Shown here one piece after another: positions 6,845 to 52,650 of a stretch of 64,000 nucleotides of DNA. Position numbers and translations under genes: made by a program. This DNA is from Bugulina stolonifera (Eukaryota > Bryozoa > Gymnolaemata > Cheilostomatida > Bugulidae), in NCBI GenBank assembly GCA_935421135.1, contig OW285194.1:4552876-4616875 (forward strand), given 5' to 3'. Numbering within the stretch: the first letter of the stretch is position 1; the number at the start of each line of letters is the position of its first letter. Under the pieces are notes generated by a model. That model worked only from the letters and a program-made list of their open reading frames with translations, was not told the DNA's origin and did no database searches.

Positions 6845-6920
6845 ATAATATACAGTAGTTATATTGCATTTGTACACTAATACGATTCAAATTGCTTTTG
6901 TAAGCTGCATGAATATAAAG

Positions 6921-7951
6921 AGTAACTGTAGAGTAACTGTAGATTAACTGTAGATTAACTGTAGATTAACTGTAGATTAACTGTAGAGTAACTGTAGAGT
7001 AACTGTAGAGTAACTGTAGAGTAGCTGTAGAGTAACTGTAGAGTAACTGTGGAGTAGCTGTAGAGTAACTGTGGAGTAGCTGTAGAGTAACTCTAGAGTA
7101 ACTGTCGAGTAGCTGTAGATTAACTGTAGAGTAACTGTAGAGTAACTGTAGAGTAACTGTAGAGTAACTGTAGGGTAGCTGTAGAGTAACTGTAGAGTAA
7201 CTGTGGAGTAACTGTCGAGTAACTGTAGAGTAACTGTAGAGTAACTGTAGAATAACTGTAGAGTAACTGTAGAGTAGCTGTAGAGTAACTGTAGAGTAGC
7301 TGTAGAGTAACTGTAGAGTAACTGTGGAGTAACTGTAGAGTAACTGTAGAGTAGCTGTAGAGTAACTGTAGAGTAACTGTCGAGTAGCTGTAGATTAACT
7401 GTAGAGTAACTGTAGAGTAACTGTAGAGTAACTGTAGGGTAGCTGTAGAGTAACTGTAGAGTAACTGTAGAGTAACTGTGGAGTAGCTGTAGAGTAACTG
7501 TAGAGTAACTGTAGAGTAACTGTAGAGTAACTGTAGAGTAGCTGTAGAGTAACTGTAGAGTAACTGTAGAGTAACTGTAGAGTAACTGTAGAGCAACTGT
7601 AGAGTAACTGTGGAGTAACTGTCGAGTAACTGTAGAGTAACTGTAGAGTAACTGTAGAGTAACTGTCGAGTAGCTGTAGAGTGGCTGTAGAGTAACTGTA
7701 GAGTAGCTGTAGAGTAGCTGTAGAGTAACTGTAGAGTAACTGTAGAGTAACTGTAGAGTAACCGTAGAGTAACTGTAGAGTAACTGTAGAGTAACTGTAG
7801 AGTAACTGTGGAGTAGCTGTAGAGTAACTGTAGAGTAACTGTATAGAGTAACTGTAGAGTAGCTGTAGAGGAACTGTAGAGTAACTGTAGAGTAACTGTA
7901 GGGTAACTGTAGTGTAACTGCAAAGTAACTGTAGTGTAACTGCAAAGTAAC
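6921..7951. repeat. 11-bp minisatellite, about 94 copies
   Basis: The unit is AGTAACTGTAG with common variants AGTAGCTGTAG, AGATTAACTGT and AGTAACTGTGG. Because 11 is not a multiple of 3 and stops are rare on the minus strand, all three minus frames stay open and give the same 11-residue periodic peptide. That is an arithmetic effect, not evidence of a gene. Confidence 0.95.
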
Positions 7952-22668: not shown

Positions 22669-24840
22669 GTGGTCTGGGGTGGAAGACTGACCGCAAACGT
22701 ATCTGAAAGAAGTCTGGAATTTGTTCTGCCTATATGTGAGGGGAATTTCTTCGAAGGGCGCACTCATAGAGTAATTACTATGCGGAGCACTAGTTTCCGC
22801 TCAATCGCACGTTGTTTTCAGACATTTTGGATTGAGACAAACTTTTGTTATCCCATGGGATTCACTGGTTACAAAGCCAAACTCTGTGATTGCGTACTAC
22901 CTACCTTGCAAGAAGAAATTGACCCTGATGGTGAGTTGTGGGACGAGCTGGCTTCTCTGCAGCTTTACAAGTCGTTGGACGACTCTAGGTTAGAGACAGT
23001 CTGATGTATTGTTGGATTCTTCCATTGAAACTCAGGCTGTTGACTTGAACACTCCTACTATGCCAGGCCAGGTTCTCAGGTGGTATGTAAGATTGTCAGC
23101 AGTCCGATTTTGGCTGATATTCCAACTCAGATTGTCTCTGGAGGCTTTACTGCTGACGACTTGGCAAAAGCATCAAAGGGGGGCAATCAACATTAGGCCT
23201 GGGTCAGTTTCTACCACTGTAGTAGACTGGGCTCCCGCTCAAAAGTCAGTAGGCATGATCAACGAAGAGGCTATGCCTCCTATTGGTCATCCACCGCTGA
23301 CGGATGAGTTGGGATTTGTCCAGTTGAAAAAGCAGCGAATGATAGCATCTGATCCTGTGCTTGTAGATTCAGCAAGTCCTATGGAGATTTCTATGGATGA
23401 TAAGGGTCAGTGTGGTGCTGGCCGTCCAGAGGAGGCAGAGAGGGAGATGACTCTGGATGTGGAGCGGAGAGCGGCTGAGTCAACGGCTCCTCCGGTGGTG
23501 GATTCTGCCACTACTGCGAGGACGTCGGGTCGCCCGGAGTCATCGGTACCAGCGGAGGGCCTGTCGAGTAGTGGGGGGTTAGTTCCTGCCACCCTGCCGC
23601 CCGTGCAGGTGGTGGTAGAACAGCTACATCTCACGCTTGATCAGGTCAAGGAGCTGCGGGCTAAACTCATACCAGATCAGTGGCTATCATCTGGCACTCG
23701 AAAGATGGTAGTTATCTGTATGGGGCCTCAGGGAAATCAAGGCATTGTACCATATGCCTCTTTCCTGGGACAGCAAAGTGAGTGCGGACCCACATCCTGC
23801 AGCACGTAGCACGTTGTTACTGTGGCTGCAGGTATGAACATGTGTCTCGTGACGCTGTCTGGAGCCACCAGAACCGCAGCAAGAAGCAGAAGAGATGTAG
23901 CCAGGCTGGGGTGATATACAGAGTGGACATAGCCTCTTTTCCCGCTTTCGAGAAAACAATGGGATGGCCTGTGGCCCTCTCCTGGAAGGTCCCAGTGTCC
24001 TTTCTGCTGGGATCTGATGGTCGTAAGACCAAACCAGAGACTGTCATCTCTTCTCTCCCTGCCACTGATGGAGAGGGGAGATAGCCCAGCCCCCGGTCGT
24101 GGTGCACGACTGTCTACCTGGCATCCGGAGTCGGTGCCCGCTGCTTTGATGGTATCAGGAAAGGTGGAGCCTATAGCTAGCCAGCCTACCTTGTCACCAG
24201 CAGCCCTAGTGACGAATCCAGTGGAAGAGCCGGCTGTGCAGATTACTACGCAAGACATGGTGTTAGATGAAACAATATAGCAGGCATTCCCTGTTAGAGC
24301 CAAAGCAACTACGCTGCTCGTATCCAGCCAGGAAGGATGTCAGAGGATGGAGGTCAAACTTACACCTGTCTCCCCTGTCAGACAATAGCTGGTGCCTTCA
24401 AAATCCGCCACTAGGCAATCCCCGAGGCTAGACGGTCCTCCTTGAACAGAGGTAGATGACAACAGAGGAGCCCCACATCTAGTAGTTCATGAAAAAGGCG
24501 TACTTCTTCTCCCAGACGCCAACCTAGACGTCCATCAGCCGACAGAAGGTCCCAAACAGGAGCCCTGTACTACCAGCCCATGTTGACAAGGAGCTTGATC
24601 GTCAACTCACACTGGAACCATATTCCTTTGGGTGTGATCAGAGAGTAAGAGATGCTCTGGCCTGCTACGCCGATACCTGAGATCCACTGACCGAGTAATT
24701 AATCCCCTCCAGAGTAAGAGATAAGGTACCAATGGCGTTCCCAGGAACCATGTTACTGAGGAGCTCCGCCGGGCTAAGAGGGAAAAGACGTTATACCAGA
24801 AACTCCCGCAAGAGCTTCCCTAACCTGACACTTGAGTATA
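22669..24840 (+). pseudogene. family B third coding block with decayed Cys/His module
   Basis: Several overlapping frames cover the region. The segment at 22,669-23,004 (ICEGNFFEGRTHRVITMR, GFTGYKAKLCDC) is unrecognised. The segment at 23,009-23,809 is Pro/Ser/Val-rich. From 23,785 the peptide THILQHVARCYCGC then HVSRDAVWSH matches the module in the family A gag (C-terminal region, 35,325-35,470) and in the 44-47 kb gene. Near 24,770 RRAKREKTLYQKL resembles the family A C-terminal end. So family B once encoded a product like the A protein, on separate or frameshifted frames. Confidence 0.65.
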
Positions 24841-29456: not shown

Positions 29457-30143
29457 AAATGTAACTCTAGCCCAGCCTCCCAACTACATTACACTTATTG
29501 TATACTTACATTGCATTACATTTGCTTGCACTGATTGTCTATGTGGTAGATTGTCACTTATATACCTATAATGTGCATTACTGAGCAACTCTGTCCTTTT
29601 TATACCCATGTAAAGAGGGCCGACCTCTCAGAATTGATATTGATATTGATTTTGTACATGAATTAGATGATTTTAAGCATCTTTTGTTGTACCCGACCTA
29701 TTTTCGGTCGGCCATTGGGCTTCCGGTCGCCATCTTGTTGTGCAATTTCTGGACGACACTACGTCATCTTTTTACGACACTACGTCGGCCTTTTTACCGA
29801 AACTTCCTCCGGAAGTTCTTATACTATATAAAGCACACTGTTTTTATGTTCATTGTCCTCAGTTGATGCTTGGATCTCAATAAAGACACATCTATACTAC
29901 TTATACAGAGACTTTCTCTTCGTAGATAGGTCGTTCCAGTTGTCAAGGCCTTCAACCTTGCCTCCCGAACCGCTTTCTAGGTCAGATCACTCTCTTTCTC
30001 AGTATAGTAAACAAGCATTGACTCGGGACCACATGGGTCGTCTTGAGTAGTCATTGGACTACTAGTACCTGTATTGATCTTTTATGTAATGAGAAGGCCT
30101 AGCACCACTCATAGTCTTGTCATTGCCCCAAAAAACCATTACA
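29457..30143 (+). mobile_element. LTR of family C, plus orientation
   Basis: It runs TGTAACGG to CCATTACA with the family's U3/R blocks, including AATAAA at 29,879-29,884, and is closest to 6,121-6,844. ATAC follows on the right but the left flank is TTGC, so no duplication is visible. It may be one end of a rearranged element. Confidence 0.8.
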
Positions 30144-31625
30144 ATACATGTATATATTTTAGATATACATGTGGTTGGTGATATAAACATTGATCTCAAT
30201 CCAAATAACAAAAGCTTTTCTGAGCAGGCAACAAAAACATATTTGAATACTTTAAGTAATCATGAATTTTTAAACCTCATTTCAAGTCCTACGAGATATG
30301 GTGATCACAAAGACAGCATGATAGATCACCTTGCTGTCAATAGATTTAAGCATGGTATCAAAACTTGTACAGTAGACTATTTGGTGGCAGATCACCAGCC
30401 ATGCATTGGTTCTATTGGAATTTCAACTCATGATTCAAAACTCAAGGCATCAGCTTTTTACACAAAAATAGATTACAAAGCTTTGAATGAAAAGATCCAA
30501 GATCAGGACTGGAGTAAAATTATTGACTTAAACAATAGCCAAAACTCTATGGAAAACTTTTTATCCACATTTCAAGCTATCTTGAAAGCTAGTAGCAACC
30601 TAATTACAGTCAAAACTCATAAACTAGATTTTAAACAACCTTGGATGACTACCAAGTTACTTTCGCTTACACAAGAGCGCACAAAACTCCACCGCAGGAT
30701 GAAAAATAAACCCTTTAATATTTTACTCAAGAATAAGTATCGCAAATTTAGAAATTATGTTTCAAATACAATCAAGTATGCCAAAAGAGATTATTTTGCA
30801 CAAAAATTTGAATCTTGCAAGAACAACACAAATGAGAAATGGAAATTCATCAATAAAATAATTACAAAAAAGGAGACAGACGAGAGTATTTCAATGATAA
30901 AAAATAATGATCTAGAGATCACAGATCCAACTGAGATGGTAGAAAATTTTAACCAGTTTTTTGTAAATATTGGATCAACACTTGCTGACAAATTACCTGA
31001 AACTTCCTGTGAATATGAAAGCTTTTTTGAAAGCGCCCCAGATAATCGGAGTTTTAAATTTAATGAAGTTAGTCCGTTGGAGATTCTATCTGTGATAAGT
31101 AAGCTTGAATCCAAAAAGGCCTCTGGTTTTGACTTGATTAGCACACGTGCCATAAAAGAAAATGCCCTTACCCTTTTGCCTGTGCTTGTTGAACTTGTAA
31201 ATCAAATCATTAAATCATCAGTATTTCCTGATAAACTCAAGATTGCTCGAGTCAAACCATTATTCAAGAAAGGCTCTAGAACTGACATGACAAATTTCCG
31301 CCCGATATCTATTTTAAGTGTAATTTCAAAGATTATTGAAAAAGTTTTATCCCAACAAATTCGAGAGCACCTTGAATTACATGATCTCTTAATAACTAAC
31401 CAATGCGGTTTCCGTCCATCAAAGAATTCAAGCCTTGCCATAAATGAATCTTTAGAACTTATTTATAAAAGATTAGATGCAAGCAGTGAAGCTCAGGCTG
31501 TTTTCTTAGATTTTTCAAAGGCGTTCGATACCATCAATCATGATATTCTTTTAGGTAAATTGCGTTTTTATAAATTTAGTGACGGTGCCATAAACCTGTT
31601 GAAATCATATTTGTCTAGCCGTATT
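30144..31625 (+). pseudogene. LINE ORF2, 5' half: endonuclease end and start of reverse transcriptase
   Basis: The open frame encodes the C-terminal part of an AP-type endonuclease (VVGDINIDLN, SSPTRYGD, DHLAVN, DHQPCIG). A linker and the first reverse-transcriptase blocks follow (ARVKPLFKKGS, NFRPISILSVISKIIEK, NQCGFRPSKNS and FLDFSKAFDTINHDIL, with the first catalytic Asp). It stops at LKSYLSSR, just before the block that normally leads to GVPQGS. The element is 5'-truncated next to the LTR. The rest of the RT is at 50,262. It looks like a CR1/Jockey-type LINE, but the clade is a guess. Confidence 0.88.
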
Positions 31626-32017
31626 GTAAGGACAAGAAATTAAATAAAAGTGAAAGTTTAATTTAAATTATTGGGAACATGAATTCAACTGCAGAACGGG
31701 TTGATAGTGAATATTATTACATTGTACACATTGATATGTTGCACTAGTCTGACAGGTCGCCTAGTATACATATGAGACAGAATAGAAGCCAGGAGTTGAC
31801 ATCATTAATGTTTCGTTTGCTATCTTATGAAGATTGTTCTTTGTAACAAAACAGGAGCTAATTTAATAAATATCTCGTTTGGAATTCTATGTCTTTGATC
31901 AAAAGAATTTATAATACATGTTTATGTCATTTGAGTTGTTTGACAGAAATGAAGAGTGACATTTCAGAATTGAAGACAATAGTAAGCTAGAATTGATGCC
32001 ATTGAGGTAAGGTGTAT
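31626..32017. other. sequence between the LINE break and the family A element
   Basis: AT-rich DNA with no LINE similarity. With 38,870-39,243 and 48,734-50,261 it would form a roughly 2.3-kb unit that split the LINE before the larger elements landed in it. Confidence 0.4.
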
Positions 32018-32700: not shown

Positions 32701-33014
32701 CTAAGGTCGTACTCTTACGACACGAAGCGAAGGAAGGTGACCTCGGCCTCGGGTGACCGACCGACCTCATTCTTCAATACTTCGACGGCGATTAAGGACT
32801 CGGACCCGGGAACCTTGGATACGAGAAGGTGACAAACGCTAAAGTGCACCCATAATTCTCGTGGTTCCGCTGGATGTAGCCCGACCTACGCCGGATCTTC
32901 AATCAAAGACCGACCTCGGATCCAGAACAGATTGACGGTACTCAGTACGACCATTAGGCCGACACGGCCTAACAAACCAAAGCAGTTTTACTCACTACCC
33001 GACACCCTACCGAC

Positions 33015-36000
33015 ATGGACCGAATAAGGAACCTGCTTCAGCAGGTGATGTACCAAGCCGAGCAGGACCTCAAAACACTCAGCTACAACGGACAAGAGGA
33101 CGTAGAACTCTTCATAGAAGACTTCACCGCTATGGCAGAGCGTTGCAACTGGAATGACAGAGCACGCCTCATACGGCTTAGAGCCGCCCTACACGGGCCC
33201 GCACAAGAATGCGGCCGACCCCGATCAGTCGAAGAGATATTTTCCCGACTGAGGGCACAGTATGGACTATCTGCCAGAGAAGCCCGATGGAAGCTGTCCA
33301 CCCTGGAACAGCCGGCCCACACGTCACTCAGAGACTATGCAGCTCTCATCCGTAGACTGATGGCGACAGCCTTTGAAGGAGCACCCTCTGCATCTTTGGA
33401 AGAATGGGCTGTTGAGAAGTTTTGCCTCACAGTCCATGACCACGGCCTACGATGGTACTATACATGGTTACAGCCCGATGATATGGAGGAAGCACTGGAA
33501 ACCAAAGCGGACTTCCTAAAAAACAAAGATGGCAGGACCAGTCCTCCAAAACAACAAGAGGAGCTTCCCGCTGACCTCCTACGGAAAGCCCTACACACCC
33601 TCCTACAGAAATGTCAAGAAGCGGATGACGGATCGACGGTCACACCGGAACCCGTCCCAGTAGATGACCCCATTCCTACTGTGGCCGACACAGACAACAA
33701 CTTAGGAGAAGGTGGACTAAACCACAATGGTCGTCCACAAAGGCCGACGGATACATCAGAACCCGTCCCAGTAGATGAACTCATTCCTACTGAGGCCAAA
33801 CCCAAGAAAAGTGGACCAAACCGCCATGGTCGTCCACAGAGGCCGACGGACACACCCGAACCCGTCCTTGTGGAAGAACCTATACCCACTAAGCCTAAAG
33901 ACAAGAGTAGCCGCTCCAAGCGGAAAATCCCACGTATAACTAGCCCATCACACTCCAGGCCGACGGTGTCAACCACACCCGTCACAGTGGATGAACCTAT
34001 ACCCACTAGGCCGAAACCAGGCAAGAAACGACTCCACTCAAAGCCGGACACAACCGAAGTGACCACAGATCACCCCCCAAGGCTGAAAGGACGACTCACA
34101 AGTCCCGCCCAGTCGGACCAGACCTCACAAGGCAAACCCGACTTGTCCTCAACTCAGAAGGACCAACAGGATCTGGCCACGTCCAGACCCGACACTAATC
34201 AGCAACTGATTCCCTCCAAAACTCAGTATACCCCGACGGATGACTTATCGTGTGTAGAACTGCCAGACACTACAGTCCAAGTCCGCGGCCTGAGGATCGA
34301 CACGGAGCAAACCGTGCTGGACCAGACAGAAGAGCTACCTCTGAACCTCTCACAGAATGTTCAAGTTTCAATAGCCCGACATGATCCAGAGGACGCGAAG
34401 TATCGCGTAGCCGACCTCCATGACATAATCCCTACGACGGAGATACAGTCTATACTGCCAGCAGTTCAAATACAAAGAGCGAAAAGTACTCTTACGGAAT
34501 TCAGTATTGCCGAACAAGTTCAGCCGAAGATACAGATTGCCGAACTCTCGAAATCCCATGAAGCGGATAAAAAGCAATCGAAGGCAACTATTGCCGTGTT
34601 CCCGCGCTTATTTGACGAGTCGAACAAAGAAAATGTGCCTGAGGCATTGCCTACAATTGAGCCAATTGCTCATCCCTCGGCTAGTATAAATACGACAGCT
34701 CACAGACGAGTAGTCCTTTCTCGTCCAGCACTTCACCGAAGCACATGTATCCCTACATGTGGCAACCTCTGCACTCTTCGTGTCACTGGTGAAGCTACTA
34801 ACAGCACTCGTATCCTTTCTCATTCTCGTGTGGACGAGACGGCTACTCCTTCCAGTATGGATCACTCCAATCAGCCTGTCTTCACAGCTGAAGGTAAGCA
34901 AATCTCAGTGTTACCAGTAGGGAACAAATCAGAATTAGAGGAACAACCCACACCTGTGGAACTGGCAGGCATGAATTCTCTCTCCCTCCCCACTCGGCAT
35001 AGACCAGTCGGGACAGAGGAGGATTCCCCTGTACATTTCCACAGGAGAGAGCATGAGTTAGAGGGCGGAGGATACACACCAAATGAATTGTGTATTGTAG
35101 ACGCATCTCCTGTACGGAAGACGCTCACTCCAGACGGCACGCCTCCACCTACTCCACCTCCTGTCACCTCTACCCTGAAGCAAGCTACAATTAAGCTGCA
35201 CAAACTAACTGACAAGCTACCCATAGAGTCATCCCAGCATTCCGGAGCCACTAAACCGTGGATTAGCACCTTCACCCAGCAGGCCCGAGACGACTTGGCC
35301 AGAAGGAGTCAGCCTAACCTCAAGTGTGCAAAGTGTGGCTTTTCCGGAACCCTCAAGAGGCTAAACATACACATCTGGCAACACTTCGCACGCTTCTACT
35401 GCCGTTGCGGACGCAGCTCTGTTAGCCGTGATGCACTAGGCCATCACTTCAGTCGGAGATCCAGTATCTGTGGGAAACGTCTCTTCCTCACAGATGGGCC
35501 CAGCTACGCGGCCCTCATGGAATGGTGGGGCGTAAAGGATCCCCCACCATTCCTGCCATGTCGTCCTACCATGGACGGACAGTCGGGAACAAACAAGCCA
35601 GTCTACCTGCCTAGCACCTCCTCTGCCCGGAAGCGGCCTCCTAAAAGACGGCACAGTCCCTCTCCCTCTCCAGAACGGACGCCCGACTCAGCACCCTCTG
35701 ATGCTACCTCCTCCTCTTCCTCGTCGCCTACCACTCCAGCTGGACCTTCTCCCTGGCGACCCAGTACCTCCGCTGTAAGCGTCACCTCCCCTGGCCGACG
35801 CGGACGTCTACCTTCTTGGAAGACCCGGCCTGCTCCAAGGAAGAGTATGCCTGCTGCTCAGCCAGGCACTCTCTATGAAGGCTCTCCACCCAAGGTCTCA
35901 TGTGCAGCTTCTTGTATAGCTTCTCCGGTTCTCCTAATTGAACCACTACAGTCTAGGCCGACGCTAGAAGTCTCGCCACACTGCTCCCCTCACACACCTG

Positions 36001-36080
36001 CCAGGGACCTACTCCGAGCCGCTCCAGACTCTCCTGCCGTCCAGTTCCCACCTCCTGCATCTCCTGTATCGTGGAGTTAG
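33015..36080 (+). CDS. large gag-like protein with C-terminal Cys/His module
   Basis: The 1,021-codon ORF starts MDRIRNLLQQVMYQAEQ. Residues about 20-170 are capsid-like (FIEDFTAMAERCNW, LRAQYGLSAREARWKL, LRDYAALIRRL). Residues 180-760 are low complexity, rich in Pro/Thr/Lys, with four imperfect repeats of a segment like PEPVPVDDPIPT. Residues 771-819 form C-x2-C-x11-H-x3-H-x5-C-x-C-x12-H-x7-C. A Ser/Pro-rich basic tail (KRPPKRRHSPSPSP) follows. There is no CCHC knuckle and no DSG/DTG protease motif. The ORF ends at a TAG that is the first base pair of the inserted element at 36,080; the frame beyond it, at 37,884, is the original C-terminus. A nucleic-acid-binding structural role is inferred. 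Confidence 0.85.
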   Translation: MDRIRNLLQQVMYQAEQDLKTLSYNGQEDVELFIEDFTAMAERCNWNDRARLIRLRAALHGPAQECGRPRSVEEIFSRLRAQYGLSAREARWKLSTLEQPAHTSLRDYAALIRRLMATAFEGAPSASLEEWAVEKFCLTVHDHGLRWYYTWLQPDDMEEALETKADFLKNKDGRTSPPKQQEELPADLLRKALHTLLQKCQEADDGSTVTPEPVPVDDPIPTVADTDNNLGEGGLNHNGRPQRPTDTSEPVPVDELIPTEAKPKKSGPNRHGRPQRPTDTPEPVLVEEPIPTKPKDKSSRSKRKIPRITSPSHSRPTVSTTPVTVDEPIPTRPKPGKKRLHSKPDTTEVTTDHPPRLKGRLTSPAQSDQTSQGKPDLSSTQKDQQDLATSRPDTNQQLIPSKTQYTPTDDLSCVELPDTTVQVRGLRIDTEQTVLDQTEELPLNLSQNVQVSIARHDPEDAKYRVADLHDIIPTTEIQSILPAVQIQRAKSTLTEFSIAEQVQPKIQIAELSKSHEADKKQSKATIAVFPRLFDESNKENVPEALPTIEPIAHPSASINTTAHRRVVLSRPALHRSTCIPTCGNLCTLRVTGEATNSTRILSHSRVDETATPSSMDHSNQPVFTAEGKQISVLPVGNKSELEEQPTPVELAGMNSLSLPTRHRPVGTEEDSPVHFHRREHELEGGGYTPNELCIVDASPVRKTLTPDGTPPPTPPPVTSTLKQATIKLHKLTDKLPIESSQHSGATKPWISTFTQQARDDLARRSQPNLKCAKCGFSGTLKRLNIHIWQHFARFYCRCGRSSVSRDALGHHFSRRSSICGKRLFLTDGPSYAALMEWWGVKDPPPFLPCRPTMDGQSGTNKPVYLPSTSSARKRPPKRRHSPSPSPERTPDSAPSDATSSSSSSPTTPAGPSPWRPSTSAVSVTSPGRRGRLPSWKTRPAPRKSMPAAQPGTLYEGSPPKVSCAASCIASPVLLIEPLQSRPTLEVSPHCSPHTPARDLLRAAPDSPAVQFPPPASPVSWS

Positions 36081-39243: not shown

Positions 39244-39249
39244 CACGTG

Positions 39250-39598
39250 AGTAGTATAGTCAGTGCACTTCTAGACAGACACGCACTCATTGACCCCTGT
39301 TTTCAACCAATCACAAGCCGGTATTTCCGATTTCAACCAATCACAGAAGAGCACAAAAATTTTGCACACGACCTTGCCAAGGTCACCCCAAAATCCCCCC
39401 TTCTGATTGGTCGAAAAAACATTTGCACACTTGACCCCAAACCCGGCCACGACCCCTTCCCTCCCTCCTTCCCACCCTCCTCCCCTCCCCCTCCCCCACC
39501 TCCCCCACCTCCTTCCTCCCCGCCACCGCCCTCGTCCCGTCCGCACCACCGCCACCGCCGCCGCCGCCACCACCGCCCTCACCACCGCCGCCGCCACC

Positions 39599-39631
<33 letters not shown>

Positions 39632-39721
39632 ACCGCCACCACCACCACCACCACCACCACCACCACCGCCACCACCACCGCCGCCATCACCGTCATCACC
39701 GCCACTCCTCCTCCACCGCCG

Positions 39722-39753
<32 letters not shown>

Positions 39754-40440
39754 CAACCCCCACTCACCCGAACGACCGATCGTTTGAGGCGGTCAAGCCG
39801 CGTCCGCCCACGTTGCGTGTGGCGCCGACCGTACACGTGGAGGCAACGCCAGTGCCCCGTATCCACCGGGCCAAGCGACTAGGCCGCGGCCCGCCGCTTC
39901 TCCTGCGCCCCCCACTCGAAAAGCTTGTGATTTAAACGAGCGAATTCGGCTGCACTTCGCCTATAGCTCTCATTAGCGATAAGAAAAAGTGCTACGGAAG
40001 GCTTGGTTTATGATGTGCATTGCATTGTTAATAAAGAAATGTGTAAAGTCTTGGCTATAAATACACTGATGGGAAGAAGGGTTGGTTCTATGATATACAT
40101 TGTATTGACAATAAAGAAACGTGTGCATGTGTTAAGTCAGCATATATCATACATTAAATAAACTTTTCACAATGGTGACAATAGAATGAATAAAAGATTG
40201 TGTACACATGTTAAAACACAATTGAAAGAATAAAAGACACATATTTAAAAGAGTATGTCATATCTATTATTAGCAAGAAAGTCTGTGTGCATGTGTTAAG
40301 ACAGTGTATATTATACATTAGATAAACTTTTCACAATAGTAGCAATAGAATAAATAAAAGGTTGTGTGCATGTGTTAAGTCAGCATTATGTAATATATTA
40401 AATAAACTTTTCACAATAGTAGCAATAGAATAAATAAAAG
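39250..40440. repeat. left terminal inverted repeat
   Basis: From the outside in: the terminal motif; two 'caaccaatcac' blocks; a pyrimidine-rich (CCACCGCC)n microsatellite at about 39,460-39,715; a run of 31 C at 39,722-39,752; a GC-rich unique block ending 'gcgaattcggctgcacttcg'; and tandem AT-rich units around 'aataaacttttcacaatagtagcaatagaataaataaaag'-type sequence (40,120-40,440). The whole is mirrored at 47,525-48,727. Confidence 0.9.
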
Positions 40441-40457
40441 AGGAGTTTAGGTACTTA

Positions 40458-41903
40458 TTACTCATCTTCATCAGAAGTTGTAGGAGCTATAATGTTTACG
40501 ACTTCGGTCTCAGCATACTCTAATTGATATGCTCCAGCTCCAAACTCTTGACACAGTCTTACCTACAAGATGATTTTAGTTTTTTACTCAGACGAATATC
40601 ACTCAAGGTGGTCAAAGCAAGAAATCTATACTTCTTTATGTTGTTGGTCCCTTACCATATCTGCTGATTTGTAGAGGTGAGCTAGTTGTTGAGGGGTTTC
40701 ACTTTTGTAGTTACGAACTTCAGAATCAGCTCCCAATCTTAGACATGTATGTAGACATTCGTAGTCTTCATTCTCTATGGCAATGTGAGATGGGGCGTAT
40801 CCATCTCCCATTCGCTATAATATCAAACAAGAGAATAGAATTAAACTCCCCATCTAACTTATCAATTCGATCTACTCTACTTTTATTCCACTGTAATGTA
40901 TTCACTTACCCTCATATCTAAGTCAGCCCGAGTATTTTTTTTTAGTACCTTTAGTGCCTCTCTATGCTTGGTGCTATGCGCTGTTTCAACAATGAGGTGG
41001 ACTACACTCCTTCCATCATGATTGTAGCTCTGTACATTGTCTTGGGGAAGTGATTTGTAAGGAACTCTGAAGTATGGATGCTTTACTTCTGCTCTGGTCA
41101 AACTTGTGGTTAGAGCATGAATAACCTTAGCTCTACCCAGACGTGCAGCAATGTGAAGGGGGGTGTCACCTTCCAAATAAACATTAGCAATATAGATAAG
41201 TATCGAATTGTTACAAGTTTTGCATCACTTTATTTTTTAACAAGCAATGCATGCAAACATTGGTGCTATAAAACACTAACCCCAAGCATCGGCTATTGCT
41301 CCATCCGCTCCCCTTGTGATGATGAGGCGAATTAGTGAATCCGAACAATAAGACTGTACAGTTAGGTGAAGTAACGTCTGCCGATTCACATTCTTTGTAT
41401 TCAGTTGTTTGTGACTCCTCGCAACAAATACCGCGAGTGCGACGGCTCTCTCATCTCTATCTCGGGCTGCTTCTAGAACCTCACTACATCATTTAGCATG
41501 ATATTTGTTTTTCACATAGTTGAGAGGTAGTTATATGGGAAATTTGTCTATCATATTTTATTTTGATCATAAAAGACAATACGAAACAAAAAAAAAAAAA
41601 ATAGTTGGAAGTATGTATAACTTACAACTCTTCATCCTTTCCATCTTGCTCCCAAAAGATAGAACGAATTTCTTCTAGTAACTGTGTGCTAAGCTTATTA
41701 CGAATATCGGTTAAAGGATCCCATTTCTGCCAGTCTAGAGGTAAGCTTTTTTGGAGAAAGAGCTCAGACACCCCCTCAAATAAGTCTTTATTCTCATACT
41801 TGCTTTGTTCTGTACATCTTTCCACTGTTACCTTCATCAGCTCTTGGTTTATAGGAGTCATTAGCTTGTTGCTATACTCGCTTGATCCATATCCACTTTC
41901 CAT
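40458..41903 (-). CDS. IkB-like ankyrin-repeat protein, five exons
   Basis: Minus-strand exons are 41,903-41,626, 41,483-41,281, 41,169-40,910, 40,814-40,656 and 40,562-40,458. All introns are GT-AG, all phases agree, and the sum is 1,005 nt (334 aa plus stop). Residues 2-7 read ESGYGS, close to the DSGxxS phosphodegron of IkB proteins. Ankyrin repeats include NRQTLLHLTVQ with LIRLIITRGAD, then GDTPLHIAARLGRAKVIHAL, NHDGRSVVHLIVETAH, and DGYAPSHIAIENEDYECL with CLRLGADSEVRN. The spacing between the second and third repeats, with an insertion before NHDG, recalls IkB. The tail APTTSDEDE is acidic. By family knowledge such a protein would bind a Rel/NF-kB dimer in the cytoplasm; this is inference. 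Intact reading frame in a mobile element suggests selection or recent capture. Confidence 0.85.
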
Positions 41904-41984
41904 GCTATTTGTGTGCTAATCTTCTTTAATTTCTATTAAGAACAGACTGGAGCTAGAAAGAGTTAACTAAACTACTGTTTCCAC

Positions 41985-42031
41985 CTCTCTTTATATAGTG
42001 AATAAAAAGATACAAATAAAGCTGATTGGCT
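41985..42031 (-). promoter_or_regulatory. core promoter of the ankyrin gene
   Basis: On the minus strand a CCAAT box (gccaatc, 42,030-42,024) is followed about 30 bp on by a TATA box (tatataaag, 41,996-41,988). The ATG is about 85 bp downstream of the TATA box. Confidence 0.65.
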
Positions 42032-42054
42032 AACAGCATATACATTGGAGCGCA

Positions 42055-43860
42055 TTGGAAACACATCAGAGTGCATCGAATCACATCGGGAAAGATCGAA
42101 AACACATAGGGAAACATCGAAACACATCGGGAAAGGTCAAAAACACATCGGGATAGGTCGAAAACACATCGGGACACATCGAATCACATCGGGGGAGGTC
42201 GAAAACACATCGGGACACATCGAATCACATCGGGGGAGGTCGAAAACACATCGGGTCACATCGAATCACATCGGGGGAGGTCGAAAACACATCGGGACAC
42301 ATCGGGAGAGGTCGAAAACACATCGAATCACATCGGGGGAGGTCGAAAACACATCAAATCACATCGGGAGAGGTCGAAAACACATCGGGGCACATCGAAT
42401 CACATCGGGGGAGGTCGAAAACACATCGAATCACATCGGGGGAGGTCGAAAACACATCGAATCACATCGGGGGAGGTCGAAAACACATCGGGGGAGGTCG
42501 AAAACACACCGGGACACATCGAATCACATCGGGGGAGGTCGCAAACACATCGAATCACATCGGGGAAGGTTGAAAACACATCGGGGGAGGTCGAAAACAC
42601 ATCGGGACACATCGAATCACATCGGGGGAGGTCGAAAACACATCGGGACACATCGAATCACATCTGGGGAGGTCGAAAACACATCGGGACACATCGAATC
42701 ACATCGGGGGAGGTCGAAAACACATCGGGACACATCGGGACACATCGGGAGAGGTCGAAAACACATCGAATCACATCGGGGGAGGTCGAAAACACATCAA
42801 ATCACATCGGGAGAGGTCGAAAACACATCGGGGCACATCGAATCACATCGGGGGAGGTCGAAAACACATCGAATCACATCGGGGGAGGTCGAAAACACAT
42901 CGAATCACATCGGGGGAGGTCGAAAACACATCGGGGGAGGTCGAAAACACATCGGGACACATCGAATCACATCGGGGGAGGTCGCAAACACATCGAATCA
43001 CATCGGGGAAGGTTGAAAACACATCGGGGGAGGTCGAAAACACATCGGGACACATCGAATCACATCGGGGGAGGTCGAAAACACATCGGGACACATCGAA
43101 TTACATCGGGGGAGGTCGAAAACACATCGGGACACATCGAATCACATCGGGGGAGGTCGAAAACACATCGGGACACATCGAATCACATCGGGGGAGGTCG
43201 AAAACACATCGGGACACATCGAATCACATCGGGGAAGGTTGAAAACACATCGGGGGAGGCCGAAAACACATCGGGACACATCGAATCACATCGGGGGAGG
43301 TCGAAAACACATCGGGGGAGGTCGAAAACACATCGGGACACATCGAATCGCATCGGGGGAGGTCGAAAACACATCGAATCACATCGGGGGAGGTCGAAAA
43401 CACATCGAATCACATCGGGGAAGGTCGAAAACACATCGGGTTACATCGGGTCACATCGGGGAAGGTCGAAAACACATCGAATCACATCGGGGGAGGTCGA
43501 AAACACATCGAATCACATCGGGGAAGGTCGAAAACACATCGGGTTACATCGGGTCACATCGGGGAAGGTCGAAAACACATCGAATCACATCGGGGGAGGT
43601 CGAAAACACATCGGGGGAGGTCGAAAACACATCGGGTTACATCGGGTTACATCGGGTTACATCGGGTCACATCGGGGAAGGTCGAAAACACATCGGGACA
43701 CATCGAATCACATCGGGGGAGGTCGAAAACACATCGGGACACATCAAATCACATCGGGGGAGGTCGAAAACACATCGGGGGAGGTCGAAAACACATCGGG
43801 TTACATCGGGTTACATCGGGTTACATCGGGTTACATCGGGTTACATCGAATCACATCGGG
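42055..43860. repeat. 1.8-kb composite minisatellite between the two cargo promoters
   Basis: It is a mosaic of CACATCGGGA, CACATCGAAT, CACATCGGGTT-type and CACATCGGGGGAGGTCGAAAA blocks. Rare variants (gtcgcaaac, ggaaggttg) recur at a spacing of 443 bp (42,400-42,651 versus 42,843-43,094), showing a second, higher-order level of duplication. Long ORFs in both strands are products of the periodicity. Confidence 0.93.
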
Positions 43861-43898
43861 ATGCAATAAATCAGACTAAAAAAAGGCACATCACTTCT

Positions 43899-43922
43899 GA
43901 TTGGACAGAGATTTCCATAAAA
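43899..43922 (+). promoter_or_regulatory. core promoter of the Cys/His-module gene
   Basis: An ATTGG (inverted CCAAT, 43,900-43,904) precedes a TATA-like cataaaag (43,915-43,922), mirroring the arrangement at 41,985-42,031. The first exon ends at 44,034. Confidence 0.55.
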
Positions 43923-44031
43923 GCAAGCGTGAGAGAGGATTTTTATCATTACCACTCAACCACCTAGTAAAGACTTGCAACTCTGTGGATATTTACTAAT
44001 TTCTCTGAATAAACATCACTCAACAATTAAT

Positions 44032-46942
44032 ATGGTGAGTGAACTTATTTTAATATGTATTTTAGTATGAATTTACTCATTTGAGTTAACATTGGGACTA
44101 ATTCTATTTTAGTAGTGATATAATACTCCCTTGGTATGACCAGGGCTTAGAAACTTTGTAAGCTTATGTATTAAACTGTTTTGATTCTCAACATGAGAGC
44201 AAGTATGTAGAGATCTGATCTGTCTATACTACAATTTGTGTGACCAGAGCTTAGAAGCTTTATAGGTGGTGAGATTTATTTTCAATATGAGTAGTTATAC
44301 CACTAGTAGTGTAATAAGTATCAAAACAGTTTATTACCACTTGTACTGGCTATACTAGTTCATCCTAGCTATTTTAATATGTATTTTAATATGAACTTAC
44401 TCATTTGAGTTAACATTGGGACTAATTATATTTTAGTAGTGGTATAATTCTCCTTTGGTATGTCCGGGGCTTAAAAACGTTGTAAGCTTATATATTAAAC
44501 TGTTTTGATTCTCAACATGAGAGCATGTGTGTAGAGATCTGCTCTGTCTATACTGCAATTAGTGTGACCAGAGCTTAGAAACTTTATTATAAGTGGTTAT
44601 ACCACTAGTAGTGTTTCTTTGTTTAGTAACTATGTTGCATTAGTAGTTCCATCCACTTGACTCATGCTTTGGTATATGTTTATTACTCTACATATACTTA
44701 CAGGCTTCTACATCTAAATATCAAAGAAAGAAATATATAAGAAAAATTAAAACATCAAAAAAAGGTACGAAGTATATGATTACGTACGATTCGGAAGACA
44801 GAAGAATCTCGAGGAAAAGAATCCCACCTCCAGAAATGGTTAGTCTATTATCTTATTTGTTCACACATGCATTACACCTTCAATCCACTATGGTGTTGGG
44901 TTTCTAAGATGTCAAAGGAGATTACTGACATTTCTTCAGAAGTATATGTTAGTTACACATAATGATGATGTACTTTTTTATACTATAAGCCTCTTACCAT
45001 GTCTAGAATGTCAAAAGAGACTACTTCCTTTTTAAAACCATATGTTAATTAGCCATAGTATGATTTTCTCTAATTCTATAAGTCTCTTACCATGTCTAAG
45101 ATGTTAAAGATTAGTGATATTTTTATTATAAGTATTGCACTTTCTTTCTTATGTATTATTTTTATCAATAAGACACTTTTTTTTCTTTTCTTATGTGAAA
45201 AAATATAACATAAATTACAACTGGTTTCTTATGTTAATGATGTATTTCTCTTTATGTGAGAAAATAGACAGGCTTTAGTAGACTTGCTTAGTACTTAGAG
45301 TGCTAGTTTTTTCATCAAATTCTTCAAAAACCATATATTACAAATAACTATGTTAATGTAGTTTGTTAATTAGTCTCTGCACATTTTATTTACATTATAG
45401 AATGAAAAAGAAACAGAACTAGGGGAAGATGAAATTGCTTTATTTGAGGACTGTGGGGGAGTAGATGGGATAGAGATAGGTAAGAATGATCTGCTATCTA
45501 TTTGTCTATTTAGAATCTTTTTGATTTACAAGTAAGTCATATGTCCTCTCTCACTTATTCTTGTTTTTTTTTCTTTTTTAGGACTCAGAGCAAAGCCGAT
45601 ATGTAAGGGGGGTCTAAGATTCTATGTCTTTGTTAGTGATGAGACAAAAAGAAGACTGGAGATGTCACTAACAAAGCCATTTGAATCGGACGACCCCTGC
45701 TTTTTATGTAATAAGAATGTTGGGCACCGACGAGGTGCCCATATTCAACAACATTTTTTGCTCAGAATCTGTTTTTGCTATCACATAACAGTAGATGGTG
45801 AGGGGATGAATAGACACTACAACTTTCCATCTAATCATTGTATTGATGGAAAGCCCTGTCACCGCCACATCTCATTCAACACTCGCTTTCTAACTGATAT
45901 CTACTCATTAAAAAAGACCATATCCTTTTTGCAAAGGGTCACTGGTCACTCTCCACCTTCCAAAATACTCATCCCCGCATACACTCCAACAACTGTTGGT
46001 GGGGTAGTATACCCTCCCTTCTTTAAGGGGATGTCTACTACTCCATTCTCTTTAAAGTCTGGGGTGTGCTCTTCACAATTTCCTCTCCCTTCTCACCATC
46101 ATTTTGATTCAGATGCTTCTTCCATCAGTAACTCTCTTACTAATGGAGACATTACCACCTCTACTTCTTCTCTTACAACTACTACTATTACTACTACTCC
46201 TTCTACTACTTCTTTTCCTCCACTCTTTTCTTCACATTCACCCTCTCATTCTCCTGAAAGATCTGTAAAGTCTGGGGTGTGCTCTTCACAATTTCCTTTC
46301 CCTTCTCACCATCATTTTGATTCAGATGCTTCTTCCATCAGTGACTCTCTTACTAATGGAGACATTACCACCTCTACTTCTTCTCTTACAACTACTACTA
46401 TTACTACTACCATTACTACCACTCCTTCTACTGCTTCTTTTCCCCCACTCTTTTCTTCACATTCACCCTCTCATTCTCCTGAAAGATCTGATGATACAGT
46501 TACCACTGTTTCGATACCTACTTCTACTCCCACCTCTTCACCTGCTCCACTCTTTTTCTTAGATTCACCCTCTTTTTCTCTTGGAAGATCTAATAATACA
46601 ATTACTAGTCTTTCAATACCTACTTTTATTACTACTTCTACTACTACCACTTCTTCCTTTTCTTTAGCTTCACCCTCTCTTTCTTTTGGAAAAGAGCTAC
46701 TTAGCTCGCAATCTCCTTCTTGTTCGTCTGAACTCAATCTTAATACCCCCACCACTATTACCCCCATAGAAGAGGAGACTGTCAGTGAACTAGTTGATCG
46801 AAGCAGACTCCCCCCATCTTTTTTCTCTGGAGCGGTTGAGTATTACCGCTCTGCCATTTTTCATCTCAAGAAGAATGGGTATCACAGAGAGGTAATAGCA
46901 CAAGCTGAAGCTTACCTTCGAGTCAGTGAAGAAAAGCTCTAA
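44032..46942 (+). CDS. Ser/Thr-rich protein with Cys/His module, four exons
   Basis: Coding exons are 44,032-44,034 (only the ATG, donor gtgagt), 44,704-44,838, 45,401-45,479 and 45,582-46,942. Phases agree and the protein is 525 aa. Residues 2-46 are basic (YQRKKYIRKIKTSKKG), a likely nuclear signal or nucleic-acid contact. Residues 112-157 form C-x2-C-x10-H-x3-H-x5-C-x-C-x12-H-x7-C, the module also found in the family A gag. A Ser/Thr/Pro-rich region follows, with a tandem duplication of about 70 residues (KSGVCSSQFP to HSPSHSPERS, twice). The C-terminal 55 residues look folded and helical (SFFSGAVEYYRSAIFHLKKN). I know no named family. DNA binding is a possibility, not shown. Only the ATG lies in exon 1, so that exon assignment is the weakest part. 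Confidence 0.8.
44050..44610. repeat. duplicated segment inside intron 1 of the module gene
   Basis: A block of about 220 bp beginning near 'atgtattttagtatgaattt' (44,057) recurs near 44,381 with about 90% identity, including 'ttgattctcaacatgagagc'. Confidence 0.75.
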
Positions 46943-47524
46943 TCATCTTTTCTTTAGTTTTTTTCTTTTTTCTCCCACTCTCTTTCTCCCACTCTCTCTC
47001 TGTAGTGTCTCATTCCCTCTGCATTTACTTTTATGTGATAGCAAATCAGTGAGGATTTTTTTTAAATTATTTTTTAAATTATTATATAATGGTATTCTAA
47101 CACTTATACACATCCTTTTATACATTCTATTGCTACTATTGTATAAAGTTTATTTAATGTATTATATGTGCTGACTTAACACATGCACACAGCTGTCTCT
47201 TGCTATAATAGCTATGACATACTCCTTTACATATGTGTCTTTTATTCTTTCAATTGTGTTTAAATCATATTATAATGATATTTCAACATGTGTACACAAT
47301 CTTTATTTATTCTATTGCTACTATTGTGAAAAGTTTATTTAATGTATTATATATGCTGCCCTTAACACATGTACACAGACTTTTCTTGCTAACAATAGCT
47401 ATGACATACTCCTTTACATATGTAGCTTTTTTATTCATTCTATTGCTAGTGTTGTAAAAAGTGTATTTAATGTATTACATAATGCTGACTTAACACATAC
47501 ACTCAATCTTTTATTTATTCTATT
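46943..47524. other. 3' flank of the module gene with tandem AT-rich units
   Basis: Units of about 200 bp (cttttatttattctattgct followed by ttgtgaaaagtttatttaat and acttaacacatgcacaca) begin near 47,100 and run into the right TIR. They may hold the poly(A) region, but no AATAAA is obvious close to the stop codon. Confidence 0.5.
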
Positions 47525-48282
47525 GCTACTATTGTGAAAAGTTTATTTAATATATTACATAATGCTAACTTAACACATGCACACAACCTTTTATTTATTC
47601 TATTGCTACTATTGTGAAAAGTTTATCTAATGTATAATATACACTGTCTTAACACATGCACACAGACTTTCTTGCTAATAATAGATATGACATACTCTTT
47701 TAAATATGTGTCTTTTATTCTTTCAATTGTGTTTTAACATGTGTACACAATCTTTTATTCATTCTATTGTCACCATTGTGAAAAGTTTATTTAATGTATA
47801 TCATAGAACCAACCCTTCTTCCCATCAGTATATTTATAGCCAAGCCTTTACACATTTCTTTATTAACAATGCAATGCACATCATAAACCAAGCCTTCTGT
47901 AGTATTTCTTCTTATCGCTGAAACCAAGCCTTCCGTAGTACTTTTTCTTATCGCTAATGAGAGCTATAGGCGAAGTGCAGCCGAATTCGCTCGTTTAAAT
48001 CACAAGCTTTTCGAGTGGGGGGCGCAGGAGAAGCGGCGGGCCGCGGCCTAGTCGCTTGGCCCGGTGGATACGGGGCACTGGCGTCGCCTCCACGTGTACG
48101 GTCGGCGCCGCACGCAACGTGGGCGGACGCGGCTTGACCGCCTCAAACGATCGGTCGTTCGGGTGAGTGGGGGTTGCGGGGGGGAGGGTGGGCGGCGGTG
48201 GAGGAGGAGTGGCGGTGATGACGGTGATGGCGGCGGTGGTGGTGGCGGTGGTGGTGGTGGTGGTGGTGGCGGTGGTGGCGGT

Positions 48283-48315
<33 letters not shown>

Positions 48316-48398
48316 GGTGGCGGCGGTGGCGGCGGTGGCGGCGGTGGCGGCGGTGGCGGCGGCGGTGGTGAGGGCGGTGGTGGCGGCGGCGGTGGCGG

Positions 48399-48429
<31 letters not shown>

Positions 48430-48727
48430 GGTGGCGGTGGTGCGGGCGGGACGAGGGCGGTGGCGGGGAGGAGGGAGGTGGGGGAGGGGGAGGGGAGGAG
48501 GGTGGGAAGGAGGGAGGGAAGGGGTCGTGGCCGGGTTTGGGGTCAAGTGTGCAAATGTTTTTTCGACCAATCAGAAGGGGGGATTTTGGGGTGACCTTGG
48601 CAAGGTCGTGTGCAAAATTTTTGTGCTCTTCTGTGATTGGTTGAAATCGGAAATACCGGCTTGTGATTGGTTGAAAACAGGGGTCAATGAGTGCGTGTCT
48701 GTCTAGAAGTGCACTGACTATACTACT
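47525..48727. repeat. right terminal inverted repeat
   Basis: It mirrors 39,250-40,440. The (GGTGGCGGC)n microsatellite is longer here and the poly-G run is only about 7, against 31 C on the left, so the microsatellites have changed since the arms were last homogenised, whereas the unique blocks are almost identical. Confidence 0.9.
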
Positions 48728-48733
48728 CACGTG

Positions 48734-50261
48734 AATGTACAATGCACAGCATGTCCATGTAAACAGTAATCGACAGTTTGGAAACTAATATAATTTATAA
48801 CTACCTGTACCAACAGATAATTGGGAGAAGACAATTTCAAACAGCCCTGTCGAATGGACTAATATAATACATCATCTAATATTAGTTTGTACAATTTAGA
48901 TTGGAGAATTACTGGCTATCTTAGAACCTGAGGCCAGCATCATGAAACACCTACATGCACATATACAGTATCCAGTGTACGTGGTCACAACACATTACAG
49001 TCAAAGCCTATAATGCTGAACAATTCTTCAACAACTCCTAATTCAGCTGCTGCTGACATCAATTAACAACTATGATTCATACAAAAAAGCCCACTACCAC
49101 GCTATTGGCTTTCAACCTACATTATTCTTGACGTCACGACCAATGAGGCTGCAGAATTATTTGCGATAAATACTGGACAATCTTTACAATTGAATGTAGT
49201 TTATTTTAATCATTTGCGAGAGTAGTATATTTTAATCACTCAAAGAGGTAGCATTCTCCTTTTTATTCGCCCAGGAGAGGCGCGAGGAGACGCGTTAATT
49301 ATTTTGTGTTAGGCGGACAGGGTTCCGCAGTGTTGAATTTTACTGAAATATTCTGTCTTATTATATTTTCAACTCGATATATAAAGCTGATTTCTTGTAT
49401 AAGATAACGGAGACCACATTGGTAAATTATTTGGACAATCATAATTATATACAACTCAGGAGTAAGTTCAGGACACCCATAGCCATATCACTGTCAAGCA
49501 CTTAAATACGTAAGTTTGTTAGATACAACAGTGCAAACCCACAGGATCGCTGGATATTTTGTATTTTCATGAAAACTGTTATTTTAACAATTAATGTAGT
49601 TTTCTAATCTGATTGTATAACTCTCTTTATGAATGAAATAGACTTGTGAACTATCCTTATACAACTCTAATCTTTGTTGAGTAGAGGTAGCCAGTTTTGT
49701 CTCCTTGAATATTTGATCATAATCTTTTGTCGGGTATATTGTCCAGAGTGCTAAACTATTGCCATTACCATTGTCAGTGTAAAAGACAAAAATAGAACCA
49801 CATATTTGAATACATGATTAATTGAACAACGTTGTTGAAATTGAATACTTGGTAAACTTCATTGAATTCAAATGTGCATGTCCAATTTATTTTAATACTG
49901 GAGGTTATCTTCTCTTGAGGTTTCGATTCATAACGTTAGTAATGCACATTGAGTACCTAAATTAGTTACGATTCGAATTATCTTCTCTTTGCTAAATCAC
50001 AAGTACTATATTGTCGAATTGTAATACTGCCAAAGTATAAATTCATATTATTGGCAGTTGTTGTTCCTAATCTATATATTATCTTCCGTCACAATAGACG
50101 GCGTGAAATTCATTTACCTGTACTATATACAAAACCTAAAACCCAAACAAAAACATACATTTTAACCAAAATTATATTACCCCTATTATATATATATATT
50201 ATATATATATATTATACAAACACAAATACTATTATTTTTTTAATTTCTCATTTTAAATCCC
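48734..50261. other. sequence between the TIR element and the LINE 3' half
   Basis: No gene. It contains a (TA)-rich stretch at 50,180-50,215 and a region near 49,100 with 'attggct' and 'tgacgtca'-like promoter motifs. It may be the right part of the roughly 2.3-kb unit that first split the LINE. Confidence 0.4.
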
Positions 50262-51390
50262 GACAGTATGCAATTTGTGAAAATTATTTCAATAGAATCT
50301 AGCTTGCAGCCTATTTCCCTGGGGGTACCCCAGGGATCAGTTTTAGGACCTTTACTATTTTTAATCTATATTAATGATCTTGCTAATGTTTCTTCAAATT
50401 TTAATTATGTTTTAGTTGCTGATGATACGAACCTTATTAGTGATAATCATTTTTGCACCAAAAATGAGCTCTTAAAAGTCAAAGAATGGTGCTTGGCAAA
50501 TAGACTTATAATCAATTTTAGTAAAACACAGCAAATCATTTTTAGAAACCCACAAAAGAAGGTAATAAATGAAGATTTTGAGTTGCCGAACTTAAGCATA
50601 GTAGATCATTGTAAATTTCTTGATGTCACCCTAGACCAGCACTGTACTTTTAGTTTCCATATAGAAAATATTTTAAGCAAAATGGCATTGTTGCTGATGA
50701 TGTTTCGTTTCTTAACCAAATTTTTAGACAAAAAAATAATGATAAATCTGTATTATGCTCTTATATACTCCCATCTTATTTATGGTATCGAGTTCTGGGG
50801 ACATGCGCCAGAATACCTCCTCTCAAAACTTTTAATTTGTCAAAAAAAACCCATACGTATAATCTTGAAACAACCTCCAAATTCTCATGTCTCCCATAAA
50901 TTTGTAGAACTTAAAATCATGCCAATTTCTATGCTATTTAAATTCAGACTCATCATATTTTATAAAAATTACATTCTCCGAAGAGAAGACAATTACAACA
51001 TTATTAAAAATGAGTACAAAATGCAAACTAGAAACAGGGCAAAAAATCCATTAATACCAAAAAATGTAAAAACAGAGAAGGGAAAGAGATCAATGTTTGA
51101 TATTGCCTGTAACCTCTTTGGTGAGTTTGCCTGAGACCTTCGGGATCTCCCTCGGGGGGTTTTCCGGCAGCAGTTGGCGGCTCGCCTGTGGGAGCTGGAT
51201 GGATCTTGATCGGGTGCTTTCTGTTCCCTCGGCAGTTCTGCTGTCGGGGTTGTGGAGTGCTGAATGGGGCTGTCATAACTCTAGTTTCGAACTATCTGAC
51301 AAGCTCCTTTGTATTTTTTTAGTTACCTTTTGTTTTTAAAAAAACACAACTTATTTCCTTGCTTTTAGAATACAATAAAACCACAATAAA
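50262..51390 (+). pseudogene. LINE ORF2, 3' half: reverse transcriptase end and 3' UTR
   Basis: The frame encodes [20 protein letters not shown], then [10 protein letters not shown] with the catalytic Asp pair, [11 protein letters not shown] and the thumb region to a stop at 51,132-51,134. One frameshift near 50,290 separates QYAICENYF from the rest. The first residues continue where the half at 30,144-31,625 stops (SYLSSR then QYAI). A GC-rich 3' UTR and an A-rich tail follow to about 51,390. Confidence 0.88.
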
Positions 51391-52253: not shown

Positions 52254-52650
52254 ACAGGAGAGGAGCAGACCAGAAAGGAGCAGACCAGAAAGGAGCAGAC
52301 CAGAAAGGAGCAGACCAGAAAGGAGCAGACCAGAGAGGAGCAGACCAGAAAGGAGCAGACCAGAAAGGAGCAGACCAGAAAGGAGCAGACCAGAAAGGAG
52401 CAGACTAGAAAGGAGCAGACTAGAAACGCGCAGACTAGAAAGGAGCAGACTAGAAAAGAGCAGACTAGAAAGGAGCAGACTAGAAACGAGCAGACTAGAA
52501 AGGAGCAGGCTAGAAAGGAGCAGGCTAGAAAGGAGCAGGCTAGAAAGAAGCAGACTAGAAAAGAGCAGGCTAGAAAAGAGCAGACTAGAAAGGAGCGGAC
52601 TAGAAAGGAGCAGACTAGAAAAGAGCAGACTAGAAAGAAGCAGGCCGGAA
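52254..52650. repeat. 15-bp minisatellite, about 26 copies
   Basis: The unit is GGAGCAGACCAGAAA, changing to GGAGCAGACTAGAAA part way through. Since 15 is a multiple of 3, it gives periodic peptides (GADQK); the drift from ACC to ACT halfway creates stops in that frame, so it is not a constrained gene. Confidence 0.93.

Follow-up and report, generated by a model that had tools for sequence, protein, structure and literature searches.

A 64,000-nucleotide stretch of the genome of the bryozoan Bugulina stolonifera (contig OW285194.1, here contig C8 of an assembly of 235 Mb in 27 contigs; the whole stretch is called the window below) contains a transposable element at 39250–48727 that belongs to a large and young family of Polinton-type elements. 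Nearly all of the family falls into two types with the same ends and different genes. Type A, to which the window element belongs, carries a spliced ankyrin gene and a spliced Cys/His gene, and type B carries genes for an integrase, a genome-packaging ATPase and a capsid protein; polymerase B was found in neither. The common ends and internal repeat arrays, the similar numbers, the low ratios of nonsynonymous to synonymous polymorphism (pN/pS) in both types and the lack of a polymerase in both lead us to favour, at a probability of roughly 0.55, a reading of the window element as component A of a Polinton with a split genome.

The window element is bounded by inverted repeats of ~1.2 kb whose first letters are AGTAGT. 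Self-comparison places the left repeat, which starts AGTAGTATAGTCAG, at 39250–40441 on the plus strand and the right one, with an identical start when read inward, at 47507–48727 on the minus strand. The two arms pair over complementary blocks of 463 nt (88%), 287 nt (97%) and 293 nt (100%), with indels in between, and the outer part of the left arm runs from unique sequence through GC-rich triplet repeats into unique sequence again. Read directly from the flanks, the 6-bp sequence CACGTG stands at 39244–39249 and again at 48728–48733. CACGTG is its own reverse complement, and the window copy alone would thus be equally compatible with a target-site duplication and with a longer inverted repeat; this ambiguity is resolved by the other copies, since 6-bp identical direct repeats flank all 16 fetched end pairs of types A and B, in 14 different sequences. 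Vertebrate Mavericks, as described in the accessible part of PMC8097293, have long inverted repeats starting with (AGT)2 or (AG)3 and 6-bp duplications. The (AGT)2 repeat ends and the 6-bp duplication support the Polinton shell proposed in an initial annotation of the window, which had also described the repeats and the flanking CACGTG correctly and had looked to a constant duplication length in other copies.

No polymerase, integrase, ATPase, protease or capsid gene is present in the reading frames of the window element that were examined, and a genome-wide search for polymerase B (PF03175) gave no match inside it. The interior holds two intact-looking spliced genes, with splice sites placed by eye; here, too, the initial annotation stands. 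The ankyrin gene (40458–41903, minus strand) has five predicted exons at 41903–41626, 41483–41281, 41169–40910, 40814–40656 and 40562–40458, preceded by a TATATAA at 41997–41991, and encodes ankyrin repeats in a protein that starts with MESGYGSSE and has an acidic C-terminus. Relatives were searched exon by exon. Exon 2 matches MIB1 best (1e-6) and Bcl-3 second (2.8e-6, over residues 34–76, the start of Bcl-3), and exon 4 matches Bcl-3 residues 197–235 (5.9e-8) and IkB-beta residues 192–234 (2e-5); the two exons thus align to the start and the end of Bcl-3, with the order kept along it. These alignments suggest that the gene is probably Bcl-3/IkB-like. The IkB degron is DSGxxS, which the protein start MESGYGSSE resembles with E in place of D.

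The Cys/His gene (44032–46942, plus strand) has four predicted exons at 44032–44034, 44704–44838, 45401–45479 and 45582–46942. Its protein combines a Cys/His module, encoded at 45698–45817, with a Ser/Thr-rich region (middle/tail), and may bind DNA. It has no Pfam match and no protein-database relative among ~8000 candidates. The host-type character that had been assigned to this gene is not borne out: its module shows a weak likeness (11 of 34 residues, E 1e-4, in one comparison) to the modules of a gag-type repeat of the same genome. A gag-type frame of this kind lies in the window at 32973–36080 (PF03732, 2.9e-5), with its module at 35325–35447; at least 150 copies of this module are present genome-wide. 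A second module resembling it, but containing a stop, lies at 23746–23868.

The end of the window element is found throughout the genome. A 32-nt end piece matches at 737 places (368 forward, 369 reverse) with at most 3 mismatches, and the reversed control matches at none, which rules out chance for the family end. About 368 elements of ~10 kb each amount, by arithmetic, to ~3.7 Mb, which is ~1.6% of the genome. For classification we used 100 listed end places, covering contigs C1 and C2 and the initial 5.1 Mb of C3, and one pattern each for A and B, with the elements only partly read through; the 52 elements with exact ends (48 pairs and 4 single ends) comprise 24 of type A, 26 of type B and 2 of neither. 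Genome-wide, the ankyrin and Cys/His patterns of type A match 149 and 148 times and the B pattern 200 times, such that A and B matches together (349) approach the total of about 368 elements. The median A element is 9.5 kb long and the median B element 10.7 kb. The Cys/His gene lies within 10 kb of the ankyrin gene at 32 of 35 listed places on C1–C3. The repeat end is therefore not confined to the window, and the cargo genes are repeatedly found side by side between such ends; the initial annotation had proposed both points as checks.

The two elements that fit neither pattern, called type C here, are L057, with a 6.5-kb interior of repeats beyond which no filtered frame of 100 amino acids was found, and L076, seen as a 1.5-kb piece of repeats. 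Five long elements on C1, fetched as halves, contain additional sequence unlike A or B, which in two of the five includes frames that resemble transposon proteins by eye; a sixth long element, on C9, contains a divergent relative. L050 (C9:3542001-3548600) is a family-ended chimera whose right part corresponds to the left half, inverted, of a B-like but divergent lineage (79% identity for the ATPase, 30% for orf1). Three B elements on C1 (L030-L035; 14200020, 14298529 and 14359536) have the duplication GCCATG and the same left flank, over the 34 bases shown, and hence appear as one insertion that was copied afterwards along with the sequence around it. Among the 52 classified elements, sorted by pattern and only partly read through, none is a complete parent with these ends and all core genes; as no copy with these ends was found to encode polymerase B, no complete autonomous parent was identified.

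Type B elements encode, in one direction, orf1, a membrane-type protein, an ATPase of the A32 type, two small proteins, the integrase, a 256-aa (amino acid) protein of unknown kind, another small protein, the capsid protein and a likely protease; two copies have in addition a 114-aa frame on the opposite strand, close to one end. The integrase matches rve (2e-11) and Chromo (1.2e-6), and the ATPase matches Pox_A32 (7.9e-6). The likely protease, probably the maturation protease, has only weak matches to the adenain family (PF00770, 0.14; African swine fever virus S273R, 0.065). The capsid protein was modelled with a mean predicted local distance difference test score (pLDDT) of 82.4, and the model compares to the double jelly-roll capsids of Singapore grouper iridovirus (SGIV), Paramecium bursaria chlorella virus 1 (PBCV-1), Sputnik and mavirus with template-modelling scores (TM-scores) of ~0.5–0.6 and E values of 1e-17 to 1e-13. 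Forty proteins stand among the matches listed for the capsid protein, the first of them identical to it; in a viral library the best match, at 25% identity, comes from Cotesia sesamiae bracovirus, and neither an IMG/VR scan nor phage records gave a match. Orf1 has no protein-database relative among ~8000 candidates. Type B thus possesses an rve integrase, a packaging ATPase and a double jelly-roll capsid protein. Where the initial annotation had looked for relatives with the same ends that encode polymerase B and integrase, copies with the same ends bring integrase, ATPase, capsid protein and a likely protease, but polymerase B was found in none of them.

A second B-like lineage is present at 13 loci, with an orf1 30–33% identical to that of B and, at C6:3788239 and C9:1539148, an integrase ~3.6 kb away. 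None of the 13 loci has a polymerase-B match within 1 Mb. AGTAGT is absent from the 2.4 kb fetched, and we therefore keep this lineage apart from the family.

Types A and B carry the same terminal sequence over the outer ~650–690 bp and diverge thereafter. In the window element the common part spans 39250–39897 (648 bp, plus strand), followed by type-specific sequence, and 48033–48727 at the right end (695 bp, minus strand). Differing genes between common terminal sequences are a property that A and B have in common with genome segments. For a tree of the termini we used 326 columns outside the GC-rich repeats and 37 ends (15 A, 22 B), counting two misaligned or interrupted ends (L004 and L027) that are the source of most variable columns. 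The 37 ends reduce to 13 terminal sequences, and three of the identical haplotypes mix the types (5 A with 10 B, 3 A with 5 B and 1 A with 1 B).

The second common feature is an array of CATCGGG. In the window element it occupies 42050–43870 between the two divergent genes, with 84 copies, all on the plus strand, at steps of mostly 10, 20, 21, 31 or 41 bp; the arrays show a helical phase with R of 0.94–0.98 at 10.35 bp. The motif occurs 29–84 times in each of seven A interiors, 37–55 times in six of seven B elements, and 94 and 67 times in the two type C pieces. Left of the window element, over 39 kb, it is found 3 times (4.8 expected), and over 15 kb on the right not at all (1.9 expected).

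The frames of both types are mostly open, and pN/pS, uncorrected and pooled over pairs of near-identical fetched copies, stays below 1 for 11 of the 12 gene pieces. In type A it is 0.35 for ankyrin exon 1 (7 copies), 0.33 for ankyrin exon 3 (6) and 0.28 for the Cys/His exon (6), and the type A exons measured are free of stops. In type B it is 0.09 for the integrase (9 copies), 0.15 for the capsid protein (7), 0.19 for the 256-aa protein (13), 0.14 for the ATPase (8, one of them from the divergent lineage), 0.48 for the protease (7), 0.50 for orf1 (7), 0.14 for orf4 (6) and 0.05 for orf8 (12 copies, 7 of them not in frame with the reference). The B ATPase is free of stops in 149 of 150 copies scored, these being the best 150 of 263 candidates. 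With pN/pS near 0.3, the type A cargo is a recurrent component rather than a one-off capture.

The whole-genome search with PF03175, in which all 14 candidates were scored, gave 11 polymerase-B matches at 10 loci, five of them on C1 and C2 and the others on C4, C7 and C10. A conventional Polinton family has an integrase 2.5–3.3 kb from polymerase B at 6 of 6 loci, and a second polymerase-B family has one at a distance of 4–8 kb at both of its two loci; two weak matches remain, on C4 and C10. One locus, C1:4278024-4293072, is a conventional 15-kb Polinton that unites polymerase B, integrase and ATPase. It has the first 10 nt of its ends (AGTAGTATAG), as well as integrase and ATPase, in common with the present family, but its termini are otherwise different: its own ends (AGTAGTATAGACTCGCC) occur only twice genome-wide at up to 3 mismatches, and the two pieces fetched contain CATCGGG 0 times and once, that is, no array. 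We excluded this locus from the family for that reason, as a conventional Polinton with other ends.

We interpret A and B as partners that would need each other. Component B (~10.7 kb) would make the integrase, the genome-packaging ATPase, the capsid protein and probably the maturation protease, and component A (~9.5 kb) the ankyrin and Cys/His proteins. Both carry the same putative cis signals, the ~650-bp AGTAGT termini and the helically phased CATCGGG array, the latter a putative binding, replication or packaging site. The B integrase would insert A as well as B with 6-bp duplications, and A would probably be packaged in B capsids. The ankyrin protein, as a Bcl-3/IkB-like protein, would be likely to damp NF-kB-type immune signalling.

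An alternative that we take seriously, while giving it the smaller part of our confidence, sees type A as a non-autonomous satellite: a shell with two captured genes that uses the integrase and capsids of B. On this view A may aid itself or B by damping immunity, with B having no need of A. The satellite idea keeps its place because nothing shows that B needs A; A displays the ends and duplications of B, its frames yielded neither a mobility nor a capsid gene, and the same-ended type C, in which only repeats were found, shows that passengers are tolerated. It sits less easily with the abundance of A, which is nearly as frequent as B, and with two cargo genes that stay together at almost all listed places at low pN/pS. 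Moreover, B has no polymerase and is no autonomous helper either, and for that reason the term non-autonomous Polinton derivative, which the initial annotation had used and which the same-ended Polinton copies bear out in part, may understate what A is. One could also regard A and B alike as satellites of the conventional Polintons of the same genome, which would supply the replicase; such potential helpers exist, with integrase close to polymerase B at all eight loci named above and, in one case, the same first 10 nt at the ends. We nevertheless consider this improbable, as 10 polymerase-B loci face about 368 elements, the integrase of the conventional elements is 26–33% identical to that of B, and the one examined has a rare end and no array. 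That the window element belongs to another transposon superfamily with captured genes, and resembles a Polinton by chance, would agree with the lack of a transposition gene in the window copy, but the same ends bound Polinton integrase, ATPase and capsid genes in type B and carry 6-bp duplications in every fetched pair, which makes this explanation very improbable indeed.

The split-genome reading could be extended to a multipartite Polinton with shared cis signals, made up of A, B and a polymerase-B component at an array, together with C derivatives. We advance this tentatively and at less than even odds. A polymerase-B gene at C10:9729434 is the candidate for the third component. It is adjoined by a C2H2-finger frame, taken here as the N-terminus of the polymerase, and then by a CATCGGG array (47 motifs in 2 kb) that is 84–94% identical to the B and C arrays. 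Further along, past an unread gap, follows a plus-strand frame that would match the layout of type A. A derivation of type C from the C10 locus was considered and dropped, because the C10 array is equally close to type B.

Several observations weigh against the split-genome reading and its extension. There is no evidence that B needs A. Polymerase B was found in none of A, B and C, with ten B proteins scanned and the fetched interiors searched, and at all five polymerase-B loci of C1 and C2 the nearest exact family end is 83 kb or more away. For the C10 locus a family end was expected near C10:9735335, but none turned up in C10:9734500-9735700, and the third component is therefore unproven. 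The mixed terminal haplotypes differ at only 1 to 4 of 326 columns and so carry little information; the A/B label requires 7 changes on the tree and shuffled labels 6.4 on average, which is no separation but also no positive signal. The chimeric B element L050 is without a CATCGGG array in the part fetched. B orf5 has a pN/pS of 1.35 (8 copies), stops or frameshifts occur in some copies of 6 of the 9 B genes measured, and the pN/pS values, uncorrected and from pooled near-identical copies, are no formal test. As for the ankyrin gene, generic and designed ankyrins score as high as Bcl-3/IkB or higher, and ahead of them for exon 4; exon 3 matches ankyrins and designed ankyrins, with no IkB among the best 60 of 241 matches, and a part of exon 3 gave a single match, at E 0.15, to another family. 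Owing to these mixed exon-by-exon matches, the Bcl-3/IkB likeness is probable, not proven.

Polintons are known as self-synthesising elements that unite their genes for replication, integration and the capsid. Beyond the (AGT)2 ends and 6-bp duplications, type B has in common with Maverick/Polinton elements of the adintovirus type an rve integrase with chromodomain, an A32-type ATPase, a double jelly-roll capsid protein and a likely protease with a weak resemblance to adenain. The present family differs in that the genes are split over two same-ended types with polymerase B found in neither, and in its phased CATCGGG arrays and spliced ankyrin and Cys/His genes; Maverick/Polinton core genes are intronless, according to the accessible part of PMC8097293. 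With respect to a proposed divided genome and a probably IkB-like ankyrin protein, the window element resembles another type of virus, the polydnaviruses. Their vankyrins are virus-borne IkB-like ankyrins on a segmented genome, are thought to damp NF-kB signalling and are not known to have the N-terminal degron region, whereas the window gene has the MESGYGSSE start and an acidic tail. Bidnavirus genomes are small single-stranded DNA. Bidnaviruses nevertheless provide the nearest precedent for segmentation in the literature consulted, having an adintovirus-type polymerase and, in some members, up to twelve segments; their jelly-roll VP capsid differs from the long integrated elements with double jelly-roll genes described here (PMC11071296, in its accessible part). 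No split Polinton was found in the literature titles and abstract openings consulted, a scope mostly of papers outside subscription.

If the split-genome reading is correct, it would show genome division in the Polinton virus lineage. The multipartite extension would, if true, be the first case of segmentation known to us in the lineage with double jelly-roll capsids. The family would also bear on the open question of whether Polintons are real viruses, because ~350 copies of two putative partners allow tests of joint expression and packaging.

An Rfam scan of the window gave no match. The remainder of the window contains further repeats. On the left side of the window element are a tandem array at 6919–7951 with an 11-bp unit (AGAGTAACTGT, ~94 copies) and a reverse-transcriptase frame at 30093–31643 (PF00078, 4e-15). 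On its far side, a frame that by eye is reverse-transcriptase-like occupies 50244–51134, followed at 52261–52643 by a minisatellite with a 15-bp unit (AGGAGCAGACTAGAA, ~25 copies).

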